Shown here piece after piece: positions 3,135-28,115 of a DNA stretch of 36,297 bases (the stretch's first letter is position 1; each line of letters begins with the position of its first letter). Both the position numbers and the translations under genes were made by a program. The notes beneath the pieces were generated by a model. The model saw only the letters and a program-made list of their open reading frames with translations. It did not search any database and had not been told where the DNA came from. The DNA is from Verrucomicrobiota bacterium (GTDB lineage: Bacteria; Verrucomicrobiota; Verrucomicrobiia; Chthoniobacterales; Terrimicrobiaceae), in contig JAPLTF010000057.1 in NCBI GenBank assembly GCA_026398275.1, positions 1-36,297 on the forward strand, in the 5' to 3' direction.

Positions 3135-3219
3135 CGGAGGGGGTGGGATTCGAACCCACGGAGCCTTTCGGCTCTCCGGTTTTCAAGACCGGCGCAATAG
3201 ACCACTCTACCACCCCTCC
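3135..3219 (-). tRNA. tRNA-Ser (anticodon UGA)
   Basis: Read on the minus strand, the acceptor arm starts GGAGGGG and pairs with CCCCUCC, followed by a G discriminator as expected for serine. The anticodon arm is CCGGU-CUUGAAA-ACCGG, with UGA at the centre of the loop. A long variable arm (GAGCC-GAAA-GGCUC) marks a class II tRNA, and the T-arm is GUGGG-UUCGAAU-CCCAC. CCA is not encoded. All helices are intact. Confidence 0.96.
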
Positions 3220-6127: not shown

Positions 6128-7260
6128 CAGTGCCCGTCGCTGAAGATGAAGTTCATCCAGGATTTCATGCGGAGCAGGACCTTGCGGAGGATGGATAGGT
6201 GCTTCATGTGGTCGGTGTATATGGCCACGTTGCCCGAGCTGCCCGGAACGATCTGGTATTTGGAGAGATCCTCCTCGAACTGGATGGAGACGATGACCCG
6301 CCCGGTGCCTTTGATCTGTTCGGGGTCGACAAGAGTGCCGCTCGGAAGCAGCTGTCCCTGCGGGATGTAGGCTCCTGTGGTGGCGACTTTGGCTTTAAAA
6401 AAACGGCCGGGCACGGCAGGCAGGATGACCTCCGCTTCCGAGCCCTCGATGATTCTCTGCGAGCTGTTCTGCAGGAAAGCTCCCGCAAACATGGCCTGCT
6501 CCTTGTGCATGAAAACCATCACGGGCCGCATGGGCATGGGAACCGCATACATGCCGGGGCGCAGGAAGAGCTGGACCACGACGCCATCGGTCGGGGCGCG
6601 CACCACGGTCTGCTCCAGATCGAAGCGGGCGCTGTCGAGTTCGGCCTGAATGCGCGCGACATCGGTGTTGACGCCCTGAATGGCGGCAGCAGCGTCCAGC
6701 GCGGCCCGCTCGGCCTCCGCCTGTGCCGCCTGCGCCTGGCTTTGGGCGGCGAAATACCTTTCTTCGGTCTGCTTGAACTGGGACTGCGAGATCACCCCCT
6801 TTTCCTGTAGGGGTTTCGAGCGGTCGTAGAGGTCCTTGGCCCCGTCGCGGGAGGAGGCTGCGGCGTCGGAGTTTTTCTTTGCCGTTTCGGCGGCGGACTT
6901 GAGCTGTTTTTCGGCCTGGGTTGCATCCGCGAGTTCGGCCTCCTTGGACTTCACTGCGTTTTGATATTTCTCGGGCTCGATCCGGAAGAGGACATCGCCG
7001 GCTTTGAGCGGGGTATTTGGCACAACCGGAACCTCGATGACCCGCCCGCCGACAGTCGGCGTGATCGGGGTCGTCACAAAATAGAAGCGACCTTCCGAAC
7101 TGAAGGGATGGTTGTAGTTCATCGCCAGCACGAGCAGGCCGATCATTGCGGCCCCACCCAACGCGGCCGTGAGGAGACTGAACCCGTTGACCGGGATCTT
7201 AAAAAGCTTGAAGATCCCGATGGCGAACGCCGCGTAGATGAGAATAAGGAGGAGTTCCAT
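6127..7260 (-). CDS. HlyD/EmrA-family membrane fusion protein (YiaV-like)
   Basis: The 377-residue protein has two N-terminal hydrophobic segments (residues 1-18 and about 30-47), then a periplasmic adaptor. A first half of a biotinyl-lipoyl domain (TPTVGGRVIEVPVVPNTPLK) is followed by a long Ala/Gln/Glu-rich coiled-coil hairpin at about residues 100-210. The second lipoyl half (VRAPTDGVVVQLFLRPGM) and a beta-barrel follow. Such proteins bridge inner-membrane transporters to outer-membrane channels. The partner upstream is a DUF3302 protein, the same pairing as E. coli yiaW-yiaV. Its stop overlaps the phosphofructokinase ATG by one base, so translation of the two is probably coupled. The substrate is unknown. 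Confidence 0.88.
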   Translation of the reverse strand: MELLLILIYAAFAIGIFKLFKIPVNGFSLLTAALGGAAMIGLLVLAMNYNHPFSSEGRFYFVTTPITPTVGGRVIEVPVVPNTPLKAGDVLFRIEPEKYQNAVKSKEAELADATQAEKQLKSAAETAKKNSDAAASSRDGAKDLYDRSKPLQEKGVISQSQFKQTEERYFAAQSQAQAAQAEAERAALDAAAAIQGVNTDVARIQAELDSARFDLEQTVVRAPTDGVVVQLFLRPGMYAVPMPMRPVMVFMHKEQAMFAGAFLQNSSQRIIEGSEAEVILPAVPGRFFKAKVATTGAYIPQGQLLPSGTLVDPEQIKGTGRVIVSIQFEEDLSKYQIVPGSSGNVAIYTDHMKHLSILRKVLLRMKSWMNFIFSDGH

Positions 7261-7263
7261 GGG

Positions 7264-7608
7264 TCAGGATTTTTGTTGGGGGCCGGCTTTTTCGATTTCA
7301 GCGAGTCGCGCTTCGAGGCGTGCGATCCGCTCGTCCGGCTCTCCGCCCGGTTTCGGCAATTTTGAATCGGGGCGTCCCGCGTAGCCGCCCTCGGGATGAT
7401 AGGACGTCGCCCAGATCCAGAGGAACGGCCAGATCACATGCAGGGTGAAAAGGCTAACCCAACCCGCGGTGTGGATGGCATCCTGGTGTGGATGGTTCCG
7501 CTTTTGGGCGATGTGGTAAGGGATGTCGTGGATCGCGATCATCCCGTAGGCCAGGATGAGGACGACAACCACGATCAGGCCGAGGGCGAAGTAGCTGAGG
7601 AAGTCCAT
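7264..7608 (-). CDS. DUF3302 inner-membrane protein (YiaW-like)
   Basis: The product has 114 residues counted from the ATG at 7608 (MDFLSYFALG). It has two membrane helices, FALGLIVVVVLILAYGMIAI and WVSLFTLHVIWPFLWIWA. The histidine-rich motif IPYHIAQKRNHPHQDAIH between them is typical of DUF3302. The cytoplasmic tail ends in a short predicted coiled coil (RIARLEARLAEIEKA). Family members sit in front of HlyD-type proteins, as here with a 3-nt gap, and probably form a small inner-membrane unit with them. An upstream TTG at 7626 would add six residues of no family character. No transported compound can be assigned. Confidence 0.85.
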   Translation of the reverse strand: MDFLSYFALGLIVVVVLILAYGMIAIHDIPYHIAQKRNHPHQDAIHTAGWVSLFTLHVIWPFLWIWATSYHPEGGYAGRPDSKLPKPGGEPDERIARLEARLAEIEKAGPQQKS

Positions 7609-7660
7609 GGTGGTGAATTGGGGCAATTCCCGCCGGTTGCGGGCCGCTCAGAATAGGGCG

Positions 7661-7676
7661 GGACAATCTTTTGTCC
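7661..7676. promoter_or_regulatory. Palindrome between divergent operons
   Basis: GGACAA and TTGTCC form a 6-bp inverted repeat with a 4-nt spacer (TCTT). It lies between the leftward YiaW-like gene (start 7608) and the rightward PPK2 gene (start 7781), so it could be a shared operator. The short arms make chance occurrence possible. Confidence 0.3.
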
Positions 7677-7780
7677 ATGCGTTTCGCGCAGCTGCAAAGC
7701 CGCTTCGTTGAGCATGAAAGACGTGACAAACTGCCGCGATCGGAGTTCGCTGGATACCGCAGATCTCTTCCCCGCATAAC

Positions 7781-8686
7781 ATGAAAACCAAACAGGTCAT
7801 CAAAGCAGCCCGCAAGTTCTCCAAGCCCTACCGCGTCACCGATGGAAAGGGATTCCGCCTCAAGGATGTTGACACCGGCGATACGCAGGATTTCAAATCC
7901 GAAGACAAGGGGCGCGCGAAGGAAGTGCTGCAGGCCGGAGTGGCTGCGCTCGCGGAGCTGCAGGACAGGCTCTACGCGCAGGACCGCTGGTCGGTGTTGC
8001 TGGTCTTCCAGGCGATGGATGCGGCGGGGAAGGACGGGACGATCAAGCATGTGATGTCGGGCATCAACCCGCAGGGCTGCCAGGTCACGTCGTTCAAGGG
8101 GCCGAGCAGCGAGGAGCTGGATCACGACTATCTCTGGCGCTGCCAGAAGCATCTGCCCGAGCGCGGGCGGATCGGGATTTTCAACCGCAGCTACTACGAG
8201 GAGACGCTGGTGGTGCGCGTGCACCCGGAGTTTCTCGCGGCGCAGAAGCTGCCGGAGAAGCGCGTGACGAAGCACATCTGGGATGAGCGGTTTCAGGATA
8301 TCCGGTCCTTCGAGCGCTACCTCAAGCGGAACGGAACGATCGTCCTGAAGTTCTTCCTCCACGTCTCGAAGGAAGAGCAGAAGAAGCGTTTCCTCGAACG
8401 GATCGAGCTTCCGGAGAAGAACTGGAAATTCTCGTCCGCCGACATGAAGGAGCGCGGATTCTGGGACCAGTATCAGAAGGCTTACGAGGAGACGATCCGC
8501 GAGACGGCGACGAAGGATGCGCCTTGGTATGTGGTTCCGGCGGACAACAAGTGGTTCACGCGCCTGGTGGTGGCCGCCGCTGTCATCGACGCACTGGACT
8601 CGTTGGATCTGCAATACCCGAAAGTCAACGACGAGAAGCTCGCGGATCTCGCCGTCGCGAAGAAGGCACTGCTCGCGGACAAATGA
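7781..8686 (+). CDS. ppk2: Polyphosphate kinase 2 family protein (class III-like)
   Basis: PPK2 enzymes transfer phosphate from polyphosphate to AMP, ADP or GDP in the cytoplasm. This 301-residue protein has the Walker A motif AAGKDGT at residues 81-87, preceded by FQAMD. A second motif, FNRSYYEE, at 134-141 is followed by VVRVHPE. The lid region and the FERYLKRNGTIVLKFFLHVSKEEQ stretch are also conserved. Single-domain length and these motifs resemble class III members, which can charge AMP to ADP to ATP. The exact substrate cannot be read from sequence. The stop overlaps the ATG of a SulP-like remnant (ATGA), so an operon with ion transporters once existed here. No upstream pho box is obvious. 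Confidence 0.93.
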   Translation: MKTKQVIKAARKFSKPYRVTDGKGFRLKDVDTGDTQDFKSEDKGRAKEVLQAGVAALAELQDRLYAQDRWSVLLVFQAMDAAGKDGTIKHVMSGINPQGCQVTSFKGPSSEELDHDYLWRCQKHLPERGRIGIFNRSYYEETLVVRVHPEFLAAQKLPEKRVTKHIWDERFQDIRSFERYLKRNGTIVLKFFLHVSKEEQKKRFLERIELPEKNWKFSSADMKERGFWDQYQKAYEETIRETATKDAPWYVVPADNKWFTRLVVAAAVIDALDSLDLQYPKVNDEKLADLAVAKKALLADK

Positions 8687-8832
8687 GCGCGGCGGCCGGC
8701 CATGCGGCCCCCTCCGGGCGCTGGCGCGGGATCGTTCCGGCGCTGGGCTGGCTGCGGAGCTACGAGCCGGGCTGGTTTCGAGCGGACCTTGCGGCGGGCG
8801 TGACGCTTGCGGCCTACCTTTTGCCGGCGGCG
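8683..8832 (+). pseudogene. SulP-family anion transporter, N-terminal remnant
   Basis: An ATG overlapping the PPK2 stop opens a frame reading WRGIVPALGWLRSYEPGW and then FRADLAAGVTLAAYLLPA. This is the characteristic start of SulP transporters up to the first membrane helix, where intact proteins (about 500 residues or more) continue. Here similarity ends within about 50 codons and the frame closes shortly after. The following DNA belongs to another remnant in a different frame. This is a broken gene or a deletion scar. Confidence 0.65.
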
Positions 8833-8939
8833 CGGTCGAGGCGCTCACGGGCATCCTGATGTGCGGGTGGTCCACGGCCTTCTTCTTTGCAGTTGTCAGC
8901 CGGAGAAACGTGTCGAAGACAACCGAAATAATCCCATGA
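8826..8939 (+). pseudogene. Possible ion-channel C-terminal remnant
   Basis: In another frame than the SulP remnant, codons from 8826 read GGAVEALTGILMCGWSTAFF and then FAVVSRR. This is one hydrophobic helix with the EALTG and GWS pattern I associate with the last helix of small two-helix K+ channel proteins. No pore signature (TVGYG) is present because the upstream part is missing. The frame ends in TGA overlapping the ATG of the next gene (ATGA), as an intact operon member would. The assignment rests on a short motif and is tentative. Confidence 0.4.
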
Positions 8940-9454
8940 ACCCACTCCTCAAAGAAATTCGCCACAATCCCCTGCTCTGGCTTCTGGCCTTCGTGCCCGT
9001 GGTGTTGGTGGCGCAGAAGCTCATGCCTGGCTCGCACACGCTGCTCTTCGTTCTGTCCGTGCTGGCCATCGTCCCGCTGGCGGCGCTGCTGAGCCACGCG
9101 ACCGAGTCGGTGGCGACGAAGACCGGCGACGCGGTCGGGGGGTTGCTCAACGCCACGCTCGGAAACCTCACCGAACTGATCATCGCGATTGCGGCCCTGC
9201 GCGCCGGCGAATACATGCTCGTGAAGGCGTCCATCGCCGGGGCGATTGTCACCAATACCCTCTTCATGCTGGGTGCTTCATTCCTCCTCGGTGGACTCAG
9301 GCACCACGTCCAGGAATTCATGATGCTCATCGCTGCTCTGACCGCCTCGCTGGTCACCAGCAGCGGCCGCTCGGCGTGGTTCGTCGGGGTGTTGGTGCTG
9401 ATGGTCTATCTCGTTTTTGCAATGACGCTCTACCTTCTGCCGCCTGCACACTAG
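8936..9454 (+). pseudogene. Ca2+/H+ antiporter (CaCA/Cax family) with large internal deletion
   Basis: The 172-residue product begins like a complete Cax protein: MNPLLKEIRHNPLLWLLAFV, then ATESVATKTGDAVGGLLNAT and the alpha-1 repeat signature LGNLTELIIAIAAL. It then follows KASIAGAIVTNTLFMLGASF as far as LLGGLRHHVQEF. The next residues (MMLIAALTASLVTSSGRSAW) match the very end of the family. The middle of the protein, including the whole second alpha repeat, is absent although the frame is kept. Family members are roughly 350 residues, so some 180-190 residues appear to be lost. Both alpha repeats are needed to form the transport site, so this product is unlikely to exchange calcium. A polymerised half-antiporter is a remote alternative. 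Confidence 0.75.
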
Positions 9455-9516
9455 TGTAGTCCGTCCAACGGATTGCGGGTTATGTTGTGGAGGCAGCCGA
9501 AGCGGAGCGGAGACAG

Positions 9517-9556
9517 CTTGCCGCAGGCAACCCGTAGGGCGAGCGCAGCGAGGCAA
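9517..9556. repeat. REP-like GC-rich short repeat, copy 2
   Basis: CTTGCCGCAGGCAA followed by CCCGTAGGGCGAGCGCAGCG parallels the copy at 5-45. It sits in the 160-bp gap between the deleted antiporter gene and glycerate kinase, again beside a broken gene. This suggests repeats of this type take part in deletions. Confidence 0.45.
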
Positions 9557-9615
9557 TTATGCCACCCTCCAGAAAATTCGTGCCCGATTCTCTAGCAGAT
9601 GGCAGGCTGGTTTGC

Positions 9616-10722
9616 ATGAGAATTCTGATTGCGCCGGACAAGTTCAAGGGCTCGCTGACGGCGGCTCAGGCGGCGGAGGCGATCGAACTCGGATGGAAGG
9701 ACGCCATGCCGGAAGCGATCTTCGACCGGGCTTGTCTGGCGGATGGCGGCGAGGGAACGGCGGATGTTATTGCATCCTGGGCAGGCGCGGAGATCAGGCG
9801 GGCAGATGTCCATGATGCCTTGGGGCAAGCTCTGGGCGCGGAATTTGTGTGGATTCCCGGCGAGGGCCTCGCGGCGATGGAGATGAGCGCGGCTTCGGGG
9901 CTCGAGAAGATTCCGGAAAGCGAGCGGGACATTCTTCGATCGACGACATTCGGCGCGGGGGAATTGCTGCTTGCCGCCATGGCTACGGGGGCCGACACGG
10001 TGGCGGTCGGCTTGGGTGGCAGCGCAACGAACGACGGCGGGGCGGGATGGGCCTCGGCCATCGGGTGGAAATTTCATGACCGCATGGGCCGGGACATGGA
10101 GCCGACGCCCGGAAACCTCTGCGCTATCGAAGGGATTATTCCCCCTCCCCGGCGGGCCCCAGTGAAGATCCTGGCCCTGTCCGATGTGAAAAATCCCCTG
10201 CTTGGACCGCGAGGATGCAGCCGGGTTTACGGTCCGCAAAAGGGTGCGACGGAGGAACAAATTGAACTCATGGAGGCCAACCTCGAACATTTTTCCAATG
10301 TGTGTGAAAAGACTTTCGGCACCAGCCATCGCGGGACACCGGGGGCAGGTGCCGCAGGCGGAACCGGGTTTGGCTTGCTGACGTTTTGTGGTGCGGAAAT
10401 TGTCTCCGGCTTCGACTGGATCGCGCATCGCCTCGACCTCGAAGCCCGTGTCGCCGCCTGCGACCTCGTCATCACCGGGGAGGGCTCGCTCGATGCCCAG
10501 ACACTCGAAGGCAAGGGACCCGGAGCACTTGCCGCGCTGGCAAAAGCGCATGGAAAGCCGTGCATCGCTTTTGCCGGGCGCATCGAGAATGCGGTTCGGG
10601 GCGTCTTTTCGCGCTGCGTTTCCATCGGCGATCCTGCAATCGGGCTTGCTGAGAACCTCGCCCGTGGGGCACAATCGCTGCGCGCTGCCGCCAACAAGAC
10701 GGCGCAATCACTTCTATCATGA
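9616..10722 (+). CDS. Glycerate kinase (type 1, GlxK/GarK family)
   Basis: The enzyme phosphorylates glycerate to 2-phosphoglycerate (or the 3-phosphate in some members) and feeds glyoxylate or sugar-acid breakdown into glycolysis. The 368-residue protein starts MRILIAPDKFKGSLTA, the family hallmark. It continues with CLADGGEGTADV, VGLGGSATNDGGAGWA and GAAGGTGFG, then DLVITGEGSLDAQTLEGKGP near the C-terminus. Length and motif order are complete. I chose the ATG at 9616 because the preceding in-frame residues (from 9559) have no conserved character. The last four bases ATGA overlap the fabD start, which suggests translational coupling. Confidence 0.95.
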   Translation: MRILIAPDKFKGSLTAAQAAEAIELGWKDAMPEAIFDRACLADGGEGTADVIASWAGAEIRRADVHDALGQALGAEFVWIPGEGLAAMEMSAASGLEKIPESERDILRSTTFGAGELLLAAMATGADTVAVGLGGSATNDGGAGWASAIGWKFHDRMGRDMEPTPGNLCAIEGIIPPPRRAPVKILALSDVKNPLLGPRGCSRVYGPQKGATEEQIELMEANLEHFSNVCEKTFGTSHRGTPGAGAAGGTGFGLLTFCGAEIVSGFDWIAHRLDLEARVAACDLVITGEGSLDAQTLEGKGPGALAALAKAHGKPCIAFAGRIENAVRGVFSRCVSIGDPAIGLAENLARGAQSLRAAANKTAQSLLS

Positions 10723-11657
10723 CCAAAAAACTCGCTCTCCTCTTCGCAGGCCAGGGTGCCCAGTCCGTCGGAATGGGCAAGGACCTCGCCGCCGAATTCC
10801 CCGCCGCCGCCGCCCTTTTCAAGCAGGCGGATGAAATCCTGGGATATCCGCTCTCGCAAATCGCATTCGAGGGCCCTGCGGAGGAACTCACGAAGACCGC
10901 CGTCTGTCAGCCCGCCCTCTATGTCCATGGGCTGGCTTGCCTGGCGGTGGTAAAGGAGAAATTTCCGGCGCTGGACTTCCATGCGACGGCTGGCCTCTCG
11001 CTCGGGGAGTTCACGGCGCATACCGCTGCGGGAACATTTGATTTTGAGACCGGCCTCCGCCTCGTGGACAAGCGGGCCCGTGCGATGCAGCAGGCCTGCG
11101 ACTCCACCGAAGGGGCCATGGCGGCGATCATCGGAGGTGACGAGGACCGGGTGCGCGACCTCGCGTCCGCCGCGGATGTCGATGTCGCAAATCTCAACTC
11201 CCCGGGCCAGATCGTCCTCTCCGGAGAATCCTCGAAAATCGCCCTGGCGGTTTCGCTGGCCAAGGAATACGGCGCGCGCAAGGCGGTCGAGCTGACGGTC
11301 GCGGGAGCATTCCACTCGCGGCTCATGGAGTCCGCCTATCAAACCCTCAGCCAGGCACTGGAGGAAACTCCGATGCTGCAGCCGCGTGTGCCGGTCGTCT
11401 GCAACGTCGATGCCACCGCTGTGGGCGATGCGGAAAACATCCGCCGCACGCTGGCCGACCAGGTCACCGGCAGCGTCTGCTGGTCGCAGAGCATCGAATA
11501 CATGATCGACCATCTCCATATCACAAACTTCCTGGAGCTCGGGCCAGGGGGGGTGATCGCCGGGCTCGTCGGGCGGATCCGCAAGGGGACGCCGGTTGTC
11601 TCCGTCTCCAATGTGGCGACGCTCGACGAGGGCCTGCCGCTGTTGATGGCCTGCTGA
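10719..11657 (+). CDS. fabD: Malonyl-CoA:ACP transacylase
   Basis: FabD loads malonate onto acyl carrier protein to start each elongation round of type II fatty acid synthesis. The 312-residue protein has LFAGQGAQSVGMGKDL at the N-terminus, the nucleophile motif GLSLGEF with Ser94, and the catalytic His199 in GAFHSRLM. It also has NLNSPGQIVLSG and a C-terminal ELGPGGVIAGLVGRI segment. No ketosynthase or ACP domain is attached and no other fab gene is adjacent, so its partners are elsewhere. It is coupled to the upstream glycerate kinase by a 4-base overlap and ends 10 bp before the convergent anti-sigma-like gene. Confidence 0.96.
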   Translation: MTKKLALLFAGQGAQSVGMGKDLAAEFPAAAALFKQADEILGYPLSQIAFEGPAEELTKTAVCQPALYVHGLACLAVVKEKFPALDFHATAGLSLGEFTAHTAAGTFDFETGLRLVDKRARAMQQACDSTEGAMAAIIGGDEDRVRDLASAADVDVANLNSPGQIVLSGESSKIALAVSLAKEYGARKAVELTVAGAFHSRLMESAYQTLSQALEETPMLQPRVPVVCNVDATAVGDAENIRRTLADQVTGSVCWSQSIEYMIDHLHITNFLELGPGGVIAGLVGRIRKGTPVVSVSNVATLDEGLPLLMAC

Positions 11658-11667
11658 AGAGCGGGCA

Positions 11668-13014
11668 TCAGTTGCCCTCGTGGTCACTGACCTTGCGAAG
11701 ATGTTCCAGGAGCTTCAGTAATCCGGACTGGATTCCAGGCGTGGGGTGATCGGCGGAGAGGATTTCGACGGCATCCGATTTCGACTCGAAGGTGAAAACG
11801 CCTCCGTAGTCGCGGAGCGCGCGGGCAATTTCCCGTGCGGCTCCGAACTTTTCCGGATCAAGGTTTTTGGAAATCGCAATGCGGGATCCCAGGCGGCACT
11901 TGCTCCTGGTCAGAGACGATGGAAGCCCGAGAGAAAGAGCATGGGGGATGCCGTTTTCAAGCTCTCCCGGCCGGATGATTCCGGCGAGGAGCGGTTGCCC
12001 GGGGCCCTCTCCTTCGACGTCGCCCGCAAGGTCAACATGCCGGGCCGCTGCCGCCCCGATGCGGCCCTCCCCAATCGGGCGGGGCTCCGTCACCTCCCAG
12101 GCGGTGAGGCCGTCGGCGGAGACAAGGATCAGTGGCGATTGCCGGAACATTTGCAAGTCGACCGCCGCCGGCATGCGAAGGACTCCGAGCCGGGAATCCC
12201 CGACCCACAGCTCGCGCTCGGGCATTTGAATCTCGCTGACAAAGACCGGCTGCCACCGCAGGCCGATTCGGAGATTTGTATTCTGACCGGCCAGTCGGAC
12301 ACTGGAGAGTTTGCTGTCTGCGGCAAGAGGAAGATTCCAGCGGCAGGTATCGGCAAACGGGCGGGCGCGCGGATCCCGGGTTGCCAGTGCGACCGCCACA
12401 ACGGGGGGCGGCGTTGGTGTCGCGGCGGCCACGGAGGTCTCCGGCGATGGGGAAGCCTCGGGTAATGGAATCGATGGCAAAGGCGGAGGGGTTGCCTCGA
12501 CATAGGCTGGAGATGGAGCGGGCTGGATCTCCGGGGTGGACGGCGAAGGCTGCGGGGGCGGAGTGGATTCGACCATGCGGAGCTCCGGGGAGGACTCCGG
12601 AATGGCCGGGGATGCGCCCGGAGTCGGGGCGGCAACAATTTTTCCCGGAACGCGATATTCCGCAGGCGGAAACAACCGAGCCAGGAGCACGAGGGCCACA
12701 CAGGCTGCGGCGGCCAGCCAGGCACCGATCCAGAACGTTCTCCGATCGTCATCGGATCGCTTCCTCCTCGCTTTCTTGACTGCCGTTTCAGAGACGATCT
12801 CCCGAGCTTGTTGAGGAGCGGAGGAGCGGATGTCGGCCATCACGGAGGCACGGACTCTGGCCGACGCCTGTCCGGAGTCGTAAATCGCCGCGAGGGCCTG
12901 CGCCATGCGCTCTTGGTCGAGCATTCCTGCGTGAAGGTCGTCTCCCTCCGGCAGTCGAGTGATCGGTTCCGGGTCCCCATCCACCCACGCGGCGATGGCC
13001 TCCTCAATGTCCAC
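11668..13014 (-). CDS. Membrane-anchored probable anti-sigma partner with proline-rich linker
   Basis: The 448-residue protein has a cytoplasmic N-terminus of about 92 residues and one membrane helix at about residues 94-116 (FWIGAWLAAAACVALVLLA). A long Pro/Ser/Thr-rich stretch at about 130-215 (repeats such as PPPQPSPSTP) precedes an extracytoplasmic domain of unknown fold. It directly follows the sigma-factor gene, overlapping it by 11 bp, with a good Shine-Dalgarno site (AAGGAGG) 7 nt before its GTG start. The architecture and arrangement fit an anti-sigma factor that holds the sigma factor at the membrane. No zinc-binding HxxxCxxC motif is visible in the N-terminal part, so the mode of sigma binding is unknown. 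The function is inferred from context. Confidence 0.65.
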   Translation of the reverse strand: MDIEEAIAAWVDGDPEPITRLPEGDDLHAGMLDQERMAQALAAIYDSGQASARVRASVMADIRSSAPQQAREIVSETAVKKARRKRSDDDRRTFWIGAWLAAAACVALVLLARLFPPAEYRVPGKIVAAPTPGASPAIPESSPELRMVESTPPPQPSPSTPEIQPAPSPAYVEATPPPLPSIPLPEASPSPETSVAAATPTPPPVVAVALATRDPRARPFADTCRWNLPLAADSKLSSVRLAGQNTNLRIGLRWQPVFVSEIQMPERELWVGDSRLGVLRMPAAVDLQMFRQSPLILVSADGLTAWEVTEPRPIGEGRIGAAAARHVDLAGDVEGEGPGQPLLAGIIRPGELENGIPHALSLGLPSSLTRSKCRLGSRIAISKNLDPEKFGAAREIARALRDYGGVFTFESKSDAVEILSADHPTPGIQSGLLKLLEHLRKVSDHEGN

Positions 13015-25767: not shown

Positions 25768-25864
25768 AGCTTTTCTTAACTTGCGCCTTGACGCCGCGCC
25801 TGAAAACCGCTGAGCTTTTCCCTGCTGACCGGACATTTTCCGGCCGTTTGTTCTTTTCAACCAA

Positions 25865-25971
25865 TCCGCCGGCCTAGGAAAGCGGGGTGAAATTCCCCCA
25901 CTGTCGCGCAAAGGTCAAAGTCCGGGTTCGAACCGGCGGAGAAAACTGCACCGTCCTGAAATGGACAACGG
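25865..25971 (+). promoter_or_regulatory. Cobalamin riboswitch-like leader
   Basis: The closing helix TCCGCCGG (25865-25872) pairs with CCGGCGGA (25933-25940). Inside are GGAA, then a GGGG-TGAAATT-CCCC hairpin (25884-25898) matching the GGTGAAAATCC core. ACTGTCGCGCAAAGGT matches the CCCGCCACTGT region. AAAGTCCGG...ACCGGCGG corresponds to the B12 box. A further hairpin (25951-25971) could be the kissing-loop arm. Downstream, ACGGGG/CCCCGT (26011-26043) may be the expression platform, ahead of the ribosome site AAAGGA at 26061. The consensus fit is partial in the B12 box. Confidence 0.72.
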
Positions 25972-26069
25972 CGACGCGTATCGTCCGTGCAGGGGTAGTC
26001 CTTTTTCTATACGGGGGAAAGGCTGTCCGAAGACACTCCCCGTGAAATTCGAAATAGAAAAAAGGATAA

Positions 26070-26678
26070 ATGAAAAAGACACTATTGGCATTCGTGCTCA
26101 CAACTCTGGGCACACTGATCACCCCGGACTCCGGCTACACTCAAATCCAGGTTGGAAGCGGGCCGGATTCTTCGTTCCTGGTCGTGGAGGCTGCGGCATT
26201 TGGAGCTCCGCTCGTTTACCAATGGAACTATACTTACAATGTTTCGGCCCCGCCTTCCACTGCGGACATGATCACCGCAGTCGATTTGGTCTCATTGGAG
26301 CTCAACTTTACCATTCTCTACAGCGGCACGTTCCTCGACTCCATCGAGCATTCCAGTCTGACGCTGACAAACGCCAGCAGCTACCCATACAGCCCTTTCT
26401 GGGCCCAGTGGGTCAGCGGCGGAACATCAGGCAGCCCTCTCGTCGCCAAACCCTCCGGCGTCTGGAGTGCCGGCTATGGCATAACCTATCGGGAGCTCGC
26501 GCCGGGATCATGGGATGGGTTCATTTTCAACGGGGTCTATGATTCGAACCCTCCTTACGATGTGATCTCCCTCGCTCCCTCCGTTGCTCCTGTGCCGGAA
26601 TCCTCCTCCCTCATCCTCCTGACCGGGGCTATCCTGCTCCTTCTCATCCGTGCAAGAAAAAGGCTTCACGCTTGTTGA
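26070..26678 (+). CDS. PEP-CTERM sorting-domain surface protein
   Basis: The 202-residue exported protein has a signal peptide (MKKTLLAFVLTTLGTLITP). Its middle region is beta-rich and has no cysteines before the tail. A tripartite C-terminal sorting signal follows: PVPESSS, one helix (LILLTGAILLLLI) and a basic end (RARKRLHA). Exosortase enzymes recognise this signal and attach or release the protein at the cell surface; none is encoded here. The gene sits about 100 nt behind the riboswitch-like leader with the ribosome site AAAGGA 3-4 nt before the ATG. Its end overlaps the pseudopilin gene by 29 bp. Cobalamin control is inferred from the leader. The function of the middle domain is unknown. 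Confidence 0.85.
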   Translation: MKKTLLAFVLTTLGTLITPDSGYTQIQVGSGPDSSFLVVEAAAFGAPLVYQWNYTYNVSAPPSTADMITAVDLVSLELNFTILYSGTFLDSIEHSSLTLTNASSYPYSPFWAQWVSGGTSGSPLVAKPSGVWSAGYGITYRELAPGSWDGFIFNGVYDSNPPYDVISLAPSVAPVPESSSLILLTGAILLLLIRARKRLHAC

Positions 26679-27414
26679 ACTCCTGACGGTGATCGCCATC
26701 GTGATGGTGCTGAGCATGGTGTCGTTCGGCGCCGGCTGGAGGGTCTACGAATCTTCCTCACTGGCCGTTTCCGCCAACAATATCAGGCAGCTCTCCGTGG
26801 GCGGCATCAACTACCTTGCCGAGCACAACTACGTTTACTGGCCTTGGTGCCAGGAAAATGTCGAAGTCACCGGCGATGCGGCATGGTGGTTTGGCTACGA
26901 AACACCGCAGAGCAGAAAACGGGCCGAAGGGTCAAGGGATTTTGATCCTGCCAAAGGACCGCTGAGCGGGTATATTCCAAAAGGGATCCGCCCGGATCCG
27001 AGCTTTTCCCTGGAGGGGAACGCCTTTAAACCAAAATACCGGAACGGGTATATCGGCACCGGCTACAATACTCTTCTCAGCGGTGGCTGGAGATGGGTGA
27101 ATGATGAAATAACTCCGCGGCTGAACCACTGGCAACTTTCCGACCCTGCAAAAGTCGTGGTCTTCTTCACCTCTGCACAAGTCGCATTCCAACCTCCGGC
27201 GTCCCCCAAAAAGCCGATGTTGGAAGAGTTTTACGGTGTCGATGCCTGGAGTCAGCCAAGCGTCCACTTCCGCCACCACGGAAAAGCAATGGTCTCCTTC
27301 GCGAGCGGCAATGCGGGGTTCCTCGACATGGATGAATCAACGCGCGACATGTCCATGCCAAAGGCCAACGTCGGGCGGTTTGCTCCTAAAGGAGATACGA
27401 CGTATCTGAAATAG
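26650..27414 (+). CDS. Type II secretion/type IV pilus-like pseudopilin
   Basis: The 254-residue protein starts MQEKGFTLVELLTVIAIVMV. This is a class III prepilin peptide with cleavage after Gly, N-methylated Phe and Glu5, followed by one hydrophobic helix. The globular part is rich in aromatic residues and ends with the FRHHGKAMVSFASGNAGFLD motif. That motif is common in the large verrucomicrobial and planctomycete family of H-X9-DG-like pseudopilins (DUF1559-related). The GTG at 26650 lies inside the PEP-CTERM gene, so expression is coupled and shares the riboswitch leader. Such genes often occur singly, away from the secretion machinery. The role is unknown; a surface fibre or substrate-binding tip is a guess. 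Confidence 0.85.
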   Translation: MQEKGFTLVELLTVIAIVMVLSMVSFGAGWRVYESSSLAVSANNIRQLSVGGINYLAEHNYVYWPWCQENVEVTGDAAWWFGYETPQSRKRAEGSRDFDPAKGPLSGYIPKGIRPDPSFSLEGNAFKPKYRNGYIGTGYNTLLSGGWRWVNDEITPRLNHWQLSDPAKVVVFFTSAQVAFQPPASPKKPMLEEFYGVDAWSQPSVHFRHHGKAMVSFASGNAGFLDMDESTRDMSMPKANVGRFAPKGDTTYLK

Positions 27415-27457: not shown

Positions 27458-27712
27458 ATGAAAGTGGTGAATCTGTCCATTCCCGAAGAGACCTGGCGCA
27501 TGGCGCGGATCGAGGCGGCGAAACGCAATACGAGTTTAAGCGCGATCGTCCGCGGCTACCTGCAGGCCATGGTGAAGGGAAAGGCTCCGGTGGTCTTTGC
27601 AGACTCCGCCGACAAGGATCAGCAGGAGCGGAGGAAACTTGTCGAAGCCCTCAAGGACTGCAACCTCGTTCTCGGCTTTAAGCCCTCGCGCGGAAAAACC
27701 TATGAGCGTTGA
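27458..27712 (+). CDS. Ribbon-helix-helix antitoxin (VapB-like)
   Basis: The 84-residue protein starts with a beta-strand (MKVVNLSIPEETWRMA) and two helices (RIEAAKRNTS, LSAIVRGYLQAMV). This is the ribbon-helix-helix DNA-binding fold of CopG/Arc-type antitoxins. The second half is charged and should wrap the toxin. It overlaps the PIN-domain toxin gene by 11 bp. The palindrome just before its ATG is the likely autoregulatory operator. No room remains for a Shine-Dalgarno site upstream except the palindrome itself, which supports leaderless translation. Pairing with a PIN toxin makes the antitoxin role likely. Confidence 0.82.
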   Translation: MKVVNLSIPEETWRMARIEAAKRNTSLSAIVRGYLQAMVKGKAPVVFADSADKDQQERRKLVEALKDCNLVLGFKPSRGKTYER

Positions 27713-28115
27713 GGCGTTTCTGGACTCGAACATCCTTCTCTACGTCGCCTCCAAAGATCCGGCGGATCGCAGGAAAGCGGCGCGGGCAGCCGAGATTGTC
27801 GCCGGAACCCGGTTTGGTGTCTCTTTGCAGGTCGCCCAGGAATTCTATCACAACGCCCGGGTGAAAGCCCGGCTGGGCATCACCTCCGGGCAGGCGGAAA
27901 AGATCATAAGCCTTCTGCTGTCGCGCCCGCTCGTCATTTCCGACGAGACCCTCTTCGCGGAGGCGCGGCGCATCACGGAGCGGTATCAGCTCCGTTACTG
28001 GGATGCCGCCATCGTGGCGGCTGCCGCCCGTCTCGGCGCGCCCGTGCTCTATTCGGAAGACCTCAATGACGGTCAAACCTACGATGGCGTCAAGGTCGTG
28101 AATCCGTTCAGCTGA
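27702..28115 (+). CDS. PIN-domain ribonuclease toxin (VapC-like)
   Basis: The 137-residue protein has the PIN fold: FLDSNILLY with the first catalytic Asp, QVAQEFYHN with the Glu, and RYWDAAIVAAA with the next Asp. The terminal strand is VLYSEDLNDGQ. Family members cleave tRNA or rRNA and are held inactive by the RHH antitoxin encoded upstream. The ATG at 27702 overlaps the antitoxin gene by 11 bp. All acidic catalytic residues are in place, so the toxin should be active. The convergent porin gene ends 4 bp away, so the module is tightly inserted between core genes. Confidence 0.88.
   Translation: MSVEAFLDSNILLYVASKDPADRRKAARAAEIVAGTRFGVSLQVAQEFYHNARVKARLGITSGQAEKIISLLLSRPLVISDETLFAEARRITERYQLRYWDAAIVAAAARLGAPVLYSEDLNDGQTYDGVKVVNPFS

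Follow-up and report, generated by a model that had tools for sequence, protein, structure and literature searches.

A cobalamin-riboswitch leader found in a Verrucomicrobiota genome precedes two overlapping genes coding for a PEP-CTERM surface protein and a pseudopilin, which are best read as a form of the known scavenging of B12 that does without BtuB, the pair being repressed by B12 and serving to capture corrinoids. The probability of this reading is put at about 0.78, with cobalamin binding by the RNA and by the surface protein, the direction of regulation and the role of the pilin as its presumed parts. The window, meaning the whole stretch of DNA analysed, comprises 36,297 nucleotides of contig JAPLTF010000057.1 from a member of Terrimicrobiaceae; the leader, the two envelope genes and the ribbon-helix-helix/PIN genes described below lie on its forward strand. 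The genome of the window (G000) has a size of 4.66 Mb in 117 contigs and is 98.7% complete. Corrinoid capture had been suggested by the initial annotation, and is supported by the transcobalamin-like predicted fold of the PEP-CTERM protein, by a DUF4465 protein in the same slot of a locus from the same genus, and by the missing matches to TonB and BtuC.

Comparison of the window with Rfam (cmscan) revealed a match to the AdoCbl-II riboswitch family RF01689 at positions 25866-25939, scoring 37.3 bits where the gathering score is 36.5, with a whole-window E of 1.8e-5. The initial annotation had proposed a cobalamin-riboswitch leader and a check with the Rfam Cobalamin models; RF01689 above its gathering score bears this out, and the GGTGAAA hairpin, GTCGCGCAAAGGT and AAAGTCCGG..ACCGGCGG form the conserved aptamer core. 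The cut-off is exceeded by 0.8 bits only, and the relatives of this leader score below it. In the window's genome this is the sole match to RF01689 and the sole one of cobalamin class, no match to RF00174 being present in the whole genome. The Avashort thermometer and FMN were also considered as the identity of the leader and rejected, since their Rfam scores were far under the respective cut-offs.

The full leader consists of the aptamer core, a second arm and an expression platform that extends up to the start codon at 26070. A custom covariance model, R1, recognises the aptamer, the second arm and the start of the platform at 25861-26007 with 156.8 bits. The second arm, CTGCAC...GTGCAG (25946-25992), is a predicted helix conserved in an alignment of 13 leaders and, by analogy, a putative kissing-loop arm. 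It is followed by an anti-Shine-Dalgarno strand, GTCCTTTTT (25998-26006), able to form nine pairs with the ribosome-binding site AAAAAGGAT (26059-26067), which starts 11 bases 5' of the ATG and would be sequestered by this pairing. Such pairing is possible in all 18 leaders inspected, with a covarying helix of 5-10 pairs; the usual strands are GTCCTTT directly 3' of the second arm and AAAGGAC on the Shine-Dalgarno side. Where one strand differs, the other has changed with it, as in the window (GTCCTTTTT/AAAAAGGAT), in L064 (CTTTTCAA/TTGAAAAG), in L049 (CTTTCTTCAA/TTGAAGAAAG) and in L068 and L075 (GTCCTTTCG/CGAAAGGAC). This anatomy would be that of a translation-off switch, the direction being taken from known cobalamin riboswitches. 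Between 25700 and 27700 neither a strong candidate sigma-70 promoter site nor a terminator above chance was found, and the stability of the minimum-free-energy fold of the leader is not unusual (z -1.05).

Regarding the distribution of the leader, RF01689 matches at E 0.01 were obtained in 14 of the 26 genomes of the family, and the leader is missing from two of the four genomes of the genus. The 13 homologous leaders that were aligned have a mean column identity of 88%, and R1 was made from this alignment. Of 213 genomes of the order, 21 have a match to R1, always as a single copy.

In order to examine the pair independently of the RNA, an alignment of the pseudopilin was searched, using protein only, against 84,980 species genomes, resulting in 28 loci. 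These are labelled as Chthoniobacterales, Spartobacteria, Terrimicrobiaceae and other Verrucomicrobia, with three from Kiritimatiellae or the PVC group and one distant locus from Planctomycetota. A cobalamin-class riboswitch is located just 5' of the pair in 25 of them, and conservation of the leader upstream of orthologous pairs, on which the original proposal depended, is therefore confirmed. Leaders of the R1 type account for 11 loci, all in genomes already known, and RF00174 was found at its gathering score upstream of the pair in 11 further loci and, in addition, in L071, L081 and L084. Since R1-type and RF00174-type leaders occur at the same place, two riboswitch subfamilies precede the same pair. 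Among the 17 loci without an R1 leader, the contig of L078 ends before the leader would begin, 14 have a riboswitch and two do not, so that the riboswitch is present in 14 of the 16 testable loci that had no share in building the RNA model. The two exceptions are L082 and L083, with no detectable cobalamin riboswitch upstream of the pair, where the riboswitch control may have disappeared or given way to another; the pair of L083 is also followed by a MetH-like gene. Judged from these sequence comparisons, the single copy of R1 in the 21 genomes and the link between leader and pair in 25 of 28 pseudopilin loci argue that the leader is not at this locus by chance. In the Planctomycetota locus (L084, 5678-7630) a distant pilin with 25% identity and a PEP-CTERM protein follow an RF00174 riboswitch scoring 100 bits, which suggests that the system is older or was transferred.

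The two envelope genes overlap by 29 bp, as initially described. The first (26070-26678) encodes a protein of 202 aa with a match to TIGR02595 PEP_CTERM at 17.4 bits (cut-off 16); its sorting signal, residues 175-198 (26592-26663), consists of VPVPESSSL, a transmembrane segment and RARKR. The related model PF07589 matches 22 of the 28 relatives, while the window protein, having PES as its motif, has no match. In five slot proteins (L072-L074, L076 and L075) the PEP-CTERM signal is lost and other C-terminal extensions are present, one of them with TSP3-like repeats; the mode of anchoring is thus variable. The genome of the window contains four PF09721 matches for exosortase.

Pfam detected no domain in the window protein, including no match to PF14717 (DUF4465), and none of the 28 slot proteins has a DUF4430-type Pfam match. 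An AlphaFold model built from the 28 slot proteins (mean pLDDT 83.9, pTM 0.74) predicts a single globular domain lacking an alpha/alpha toroid. Comparison of this model with solved structures by VIA-align aligned residues ~29-158 (26154-26543), a predicted beta-grasp domain, with the beta domain of mammalian B12 carriers. The best match was haptocorrin (Z 11.7, 100 residues, 2.3 A), followed by intrinsic factor (11.6) and transcobalamin (11.3), and the isolated transcobalamin beta domain gave Z 10.9. All of the top 14 rows are mammalian haptocorrin, intrinsic factor or transcobalamin (Z 10.5-11.7, ~100 residues, 2.2-2.4 A); below them come a Ruminococcus gnavus protein of putative metal-binding function (Z 9.7) and, as the next fold, Urm1 (Z 6.2). 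Since models with no clear match typically peak at Z 7-8 in this comparison, the value of 11.7 stands out. The six best PDB matches by Foldseek are likewise transcobalamins, with weak E values of 0.03-0.09 and probabilities of 0.95-0.99. A profile comparison of the slot family with transcobalamin beta domains, the latter represented by two sequences, scored no higher than shuffled controls, and therefore sequence homology to transcobalamin is not claimed; the slot-family profile found nothing real among PDB sequences.

A further line of evidence comes from the same-genus genome G005, the locus of which has the order leader, PEP-CTERM gene, pilin gene and, on the opposite strand, an OprB-like gene. 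The G005 pilin is homologous to the window pilin over its full length (32% identity, 2e-37), whereas the slot proteins of the two loci are unrelated by BLASTP. The slot protein of the G005 locus (L003) combines DUF4465 with PEP-CTERM, matching PF14717 at 3.7e-50 and the PDB entry 9hmu, its best match, at 1.3e-35. DUF4465 is a B12-binding family in Bacteroides, represented by BtuJ (PMC12751083), and DUF4465 proteins, among them some from the Verrucomicrobiota genera Coraliomargarita and Haloferula, were included in B12-binding studies with a reported positive outcome (PMC13398666). The strongest functional argument for the proposed role is that two B12-associated folds alternate in a single slot under riboswitch control.

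In the window the pair is flanked upstream, on the other strand, by a gene for an Amt-type ammonium transporter and downstream by a ribbon-helix-helix (RHH)/PIN pair and an OprB porin gene. These neighbours agree with the earlier observation that no TonB, Btu or cobalamin-synthesis gene adjoins the pair. The RHH/PIN pair (27458-28115), resembling a toxin-antitoxin system, directly follows the pseudopilin gene; comparison with G005 suggests that it is an insertion separating the OprB gene from the envelope pair. At other loci the neighbouring genes also point to B12. Membrane proteins of the DUF6580 type are encoded behind the pilin gene or elsewhere in its cluster in L062/L015, L053, L049, L082 and L083; a PF20221 match confirms the assignment in L053 and L049, while the others were assigned by resemblance. 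MetH-like genes are located near the pair in L062, L068, L083 and L067 and, less clearly, L069, with PF02965 verified in G001 and G072. DUF6580 has no match among PDB sequences and no mention in the literature searched; to regard it as a candidate inner-membrane corrinoid transporter is a guess from its membrane character.

The second gene of the pair (26650-27414) begins with GTG and encodes a pseudopilin of 254 aa, recognised by PF07963 N_methyl at 25.2 bits (cut-off 21.2). Its type IV prepilin motif, QEK-GFTLVELL..., at 26653-26724 is covered by PF07963 and TIGR02532. The protein is 47-68% identical to 26 relatives and 25% identical to the Planctomycetota one. Over the 28 loci the mean identity of the pilin is 55% as against 26% for the slot protein. 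The best solved-structure matches of the pseudopilin are pilins, and the C-terminal domain has no clear solved fold, its best matches again being pilins at Z of 4.8 or below. Compared with the Verru_Chthon cassette pseudopilins (TIGR02596, TIGR02599), with which it shares a verrucomicrobial-type prepilin N-terminus, the window pilin matches in the N-terminal part only, with 21 bits against a cut-off of 70, and has another C-terminal domain. Secretins were found in all 19 genomes examined, with five PF00263 matches in that of the window. The fibre proposed in the initial reading is a putative structure, based on the conserved N-terminus of the pilin and on these secretins.

Some features of B12 metabolism help to place the pair. 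The B12-dependent methionine synthase MetH was found in 13 of 14 genomes, that of the window being one of them, and CbiC was absent from all 19 genomes tested, again including the window's, while seven control genomes were positive. The presence of MetH and absence of CbiC indicate, at the level of gene content, that these bacteria probably need external corrinoids. Directly behind the same leader family, the genomes G016, G018 and G020 have a TonB-dependent BtuB-like receptor, with receptor domains confirmed for G016 and the plug domain in all three. Of the 14 genomes searched, only these three gave a match to the receptor and the other 11 gave none; it is absent from the window's genome. The pair thus seems to occupy the place held by BtuB in relatives. 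The 98.7% complete genome of the window has no match to the TonB plug (PF07715) or to the FecCD permease (PF01032), and both are likewise absent from G001 and G025. TonB receptors of other kinds, or FecCD proteins, do occur in several other genomes with the pair, and replacement of BtuB by the pair is therefore not universal. Searches of the window's genome for an inner-membrane B12 transporter by FecCD or DUF6580 gave none, the DUF6580 search being one for which no control was positive.

These data can be combined into the following model. When intracellular adenosylcobalamin is scarce, the ribosome-binding site would be free and both envelope proteins would be made; at high levels, its binding to the aptamer would favour the GTCCTTT/AAAGGA helix and hide the site. 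The PEP-CTERM protein would be anchored via exosortase, presumably at the cell surface, and its single domain, resembling the beta domain of transcobalamin and intrinsic factor, would bind cobalamin. The pseudopilin, as a dedicated partner, would most likely aid display, export or delivery through type II/IV (secretin) machinery. In cells unable to synthesise B12 the pair would supply it to MetH, as riboswitch-controlled BtuB does in close relatives. Exosortase and secretins, both required by the proposed pair, occur in the window's genome. A more far-reaching form of the model, in which B12 captured by the PEP-CTERM-anchored transcobalamin-type domain crosses the outer membrane by means of the B12-regulated pseudopilin and a secretin machine, replacing BtuB with TonB-free import, is tentative and, on balance, unlikely.

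The role of the pilin is the point at which a serious rival has to be considered. The PEP-CTERM protein may be a soluble or surface cobalamin trap, with the pseudopilin as a mere type II-like secretion helper that assists its passage across the outer membrane and takes no part in uptake. This is a sub-reading of the capture explanation, differing solely in what the pilin does, and is quite possible, if short of an even chance. It accords with the presence of secretins in all the genomes examined, with a pilin recognisable by its N-terminal motif and helix only, and with retention of the pilin while the slot protein changes. The C-terminal domain of the pilin is far better conserved than the capture protein (55% versus 26% mean identity), pointing to a function specific to the pilin.

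Two other explanations concern the function of the pair and the response of the leader. PEP-CTERM proteins in general are associated with exopolysaccharide and the biofilm matrix, and pilins are frequently adhesive; the pair could respond to B12 as components of adhesion or biofilm matrix tied to corrinoid status, for example in attachment to B12-producing neighbours. This is improbable in view of the predicted fold of the window protein, which is that of the cobalamin-binding beta domain of B12 carriers, the B12-binding family DUF4465 filling the slot of the same-genus locus, and the replacement of the pair by BtuB in relatives. That the leader is a decayed or look-alike RNA with no response to cobalamin, leaving the pair constitutive, could be argued from a score barely over the RF01689 cut-off and from relatives under it; the core, however, is invariant across families, the Shine-Dalgarno pairing covaries, and RF00174-type riboswitches take the same place in 14 other loci, making this a very improbable account. 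The capture reading remains the preferred one.

The proposed capture pair has a known relative for each of its components. Like known cobalamin riboswitches of the RF01689 and RF00174 families, the leader has a core above the RF01689 cut-off, counterparts of RF00174 type at the same place elsewhere, and a translation-type platform that would hide the Shine-Dalgarno sequence. It differs from them in driving PEP-CTERM and pseudopilin genes, instead of Btu, synthesis or B12-independent isozyme genes, and from RF01689 in that most of its relatives fall under the cut-off of that family. The surface protein resembles the beta domain of transcobalamin, intrinsic factor and haptocorrin in predicted fold, with neither the alpha/alpha toroid of these carriers nor a significant sequence match to them. 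A transcobalamin-like clade of SLBB domains was defined in a 2007 analysis and reported in low-GC Gram-positives and planctomycetes; its bacterial members were predicted to scavenge B12, generally in bacteria without B12 synthesis enzymes (PMC1796856). In contrast to those bacterial proteins, the window protein is PEP-CTERM-anchored, not carrying a Gram-positive anchor, and has a pseudopilin partner. Another likeness is to BtuG, BtuH, BtuJ (DUF4465) and BtuK of Bacteroides, cobalamin-riboswitch-controlled surface proteins of diverse folds (PMC6143338, PMC8941943, PMC12751083), one of whose families, DUF4465, occupies the slot in G005. The Bacteroides proteins are lipoproteins working with BtuB and BtuFCD, whereas the window's genome has no TonB or BtuC match and the conserved partner is a pilin.

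In the standard scheme, Gram-negative bacteria take up B12 through BtuB with TonB and then BtuFCD. The pair, by comparison, belongs to B12-dependent, apparently non-synthesising bacteria, and in the window's genome the sole cobalamin riboswitch would control this pair and not Btu genes. No description of a riboswitch with a PEP-CTERM capture protein and a pseudopilin was found in the literature searched, which covered few subscription journals; within that literature the combination of these components, in genomes with no BtuB or BtuC matches, is new. The capture reading would extend surface B12 binders beyond the Bacteroides lipoproteins, show that a surface protein of Gram-negative bacteria can contain a capture domain resembling transcobalamin, and assign a concrete job to the PEP-CTERM/exosortase system and to a pseudopilin family.

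Two minor observations may be added. In L050 (G070, 7236-11747) beta-propeller proteins with SBBP and Reg_prop repeats and weak PEP-CTERM ends stand behind a leader of this family, and there is no pilin; this is possibly another B12 capture cassette, recalling by analogy the propellers of BtuG. Elsewhere in the window, on the reverse strand, positions 3135-3219 carry a tRNA gene whose variable arm is long and which is of serine type according to the TGA in its anticodon loop.
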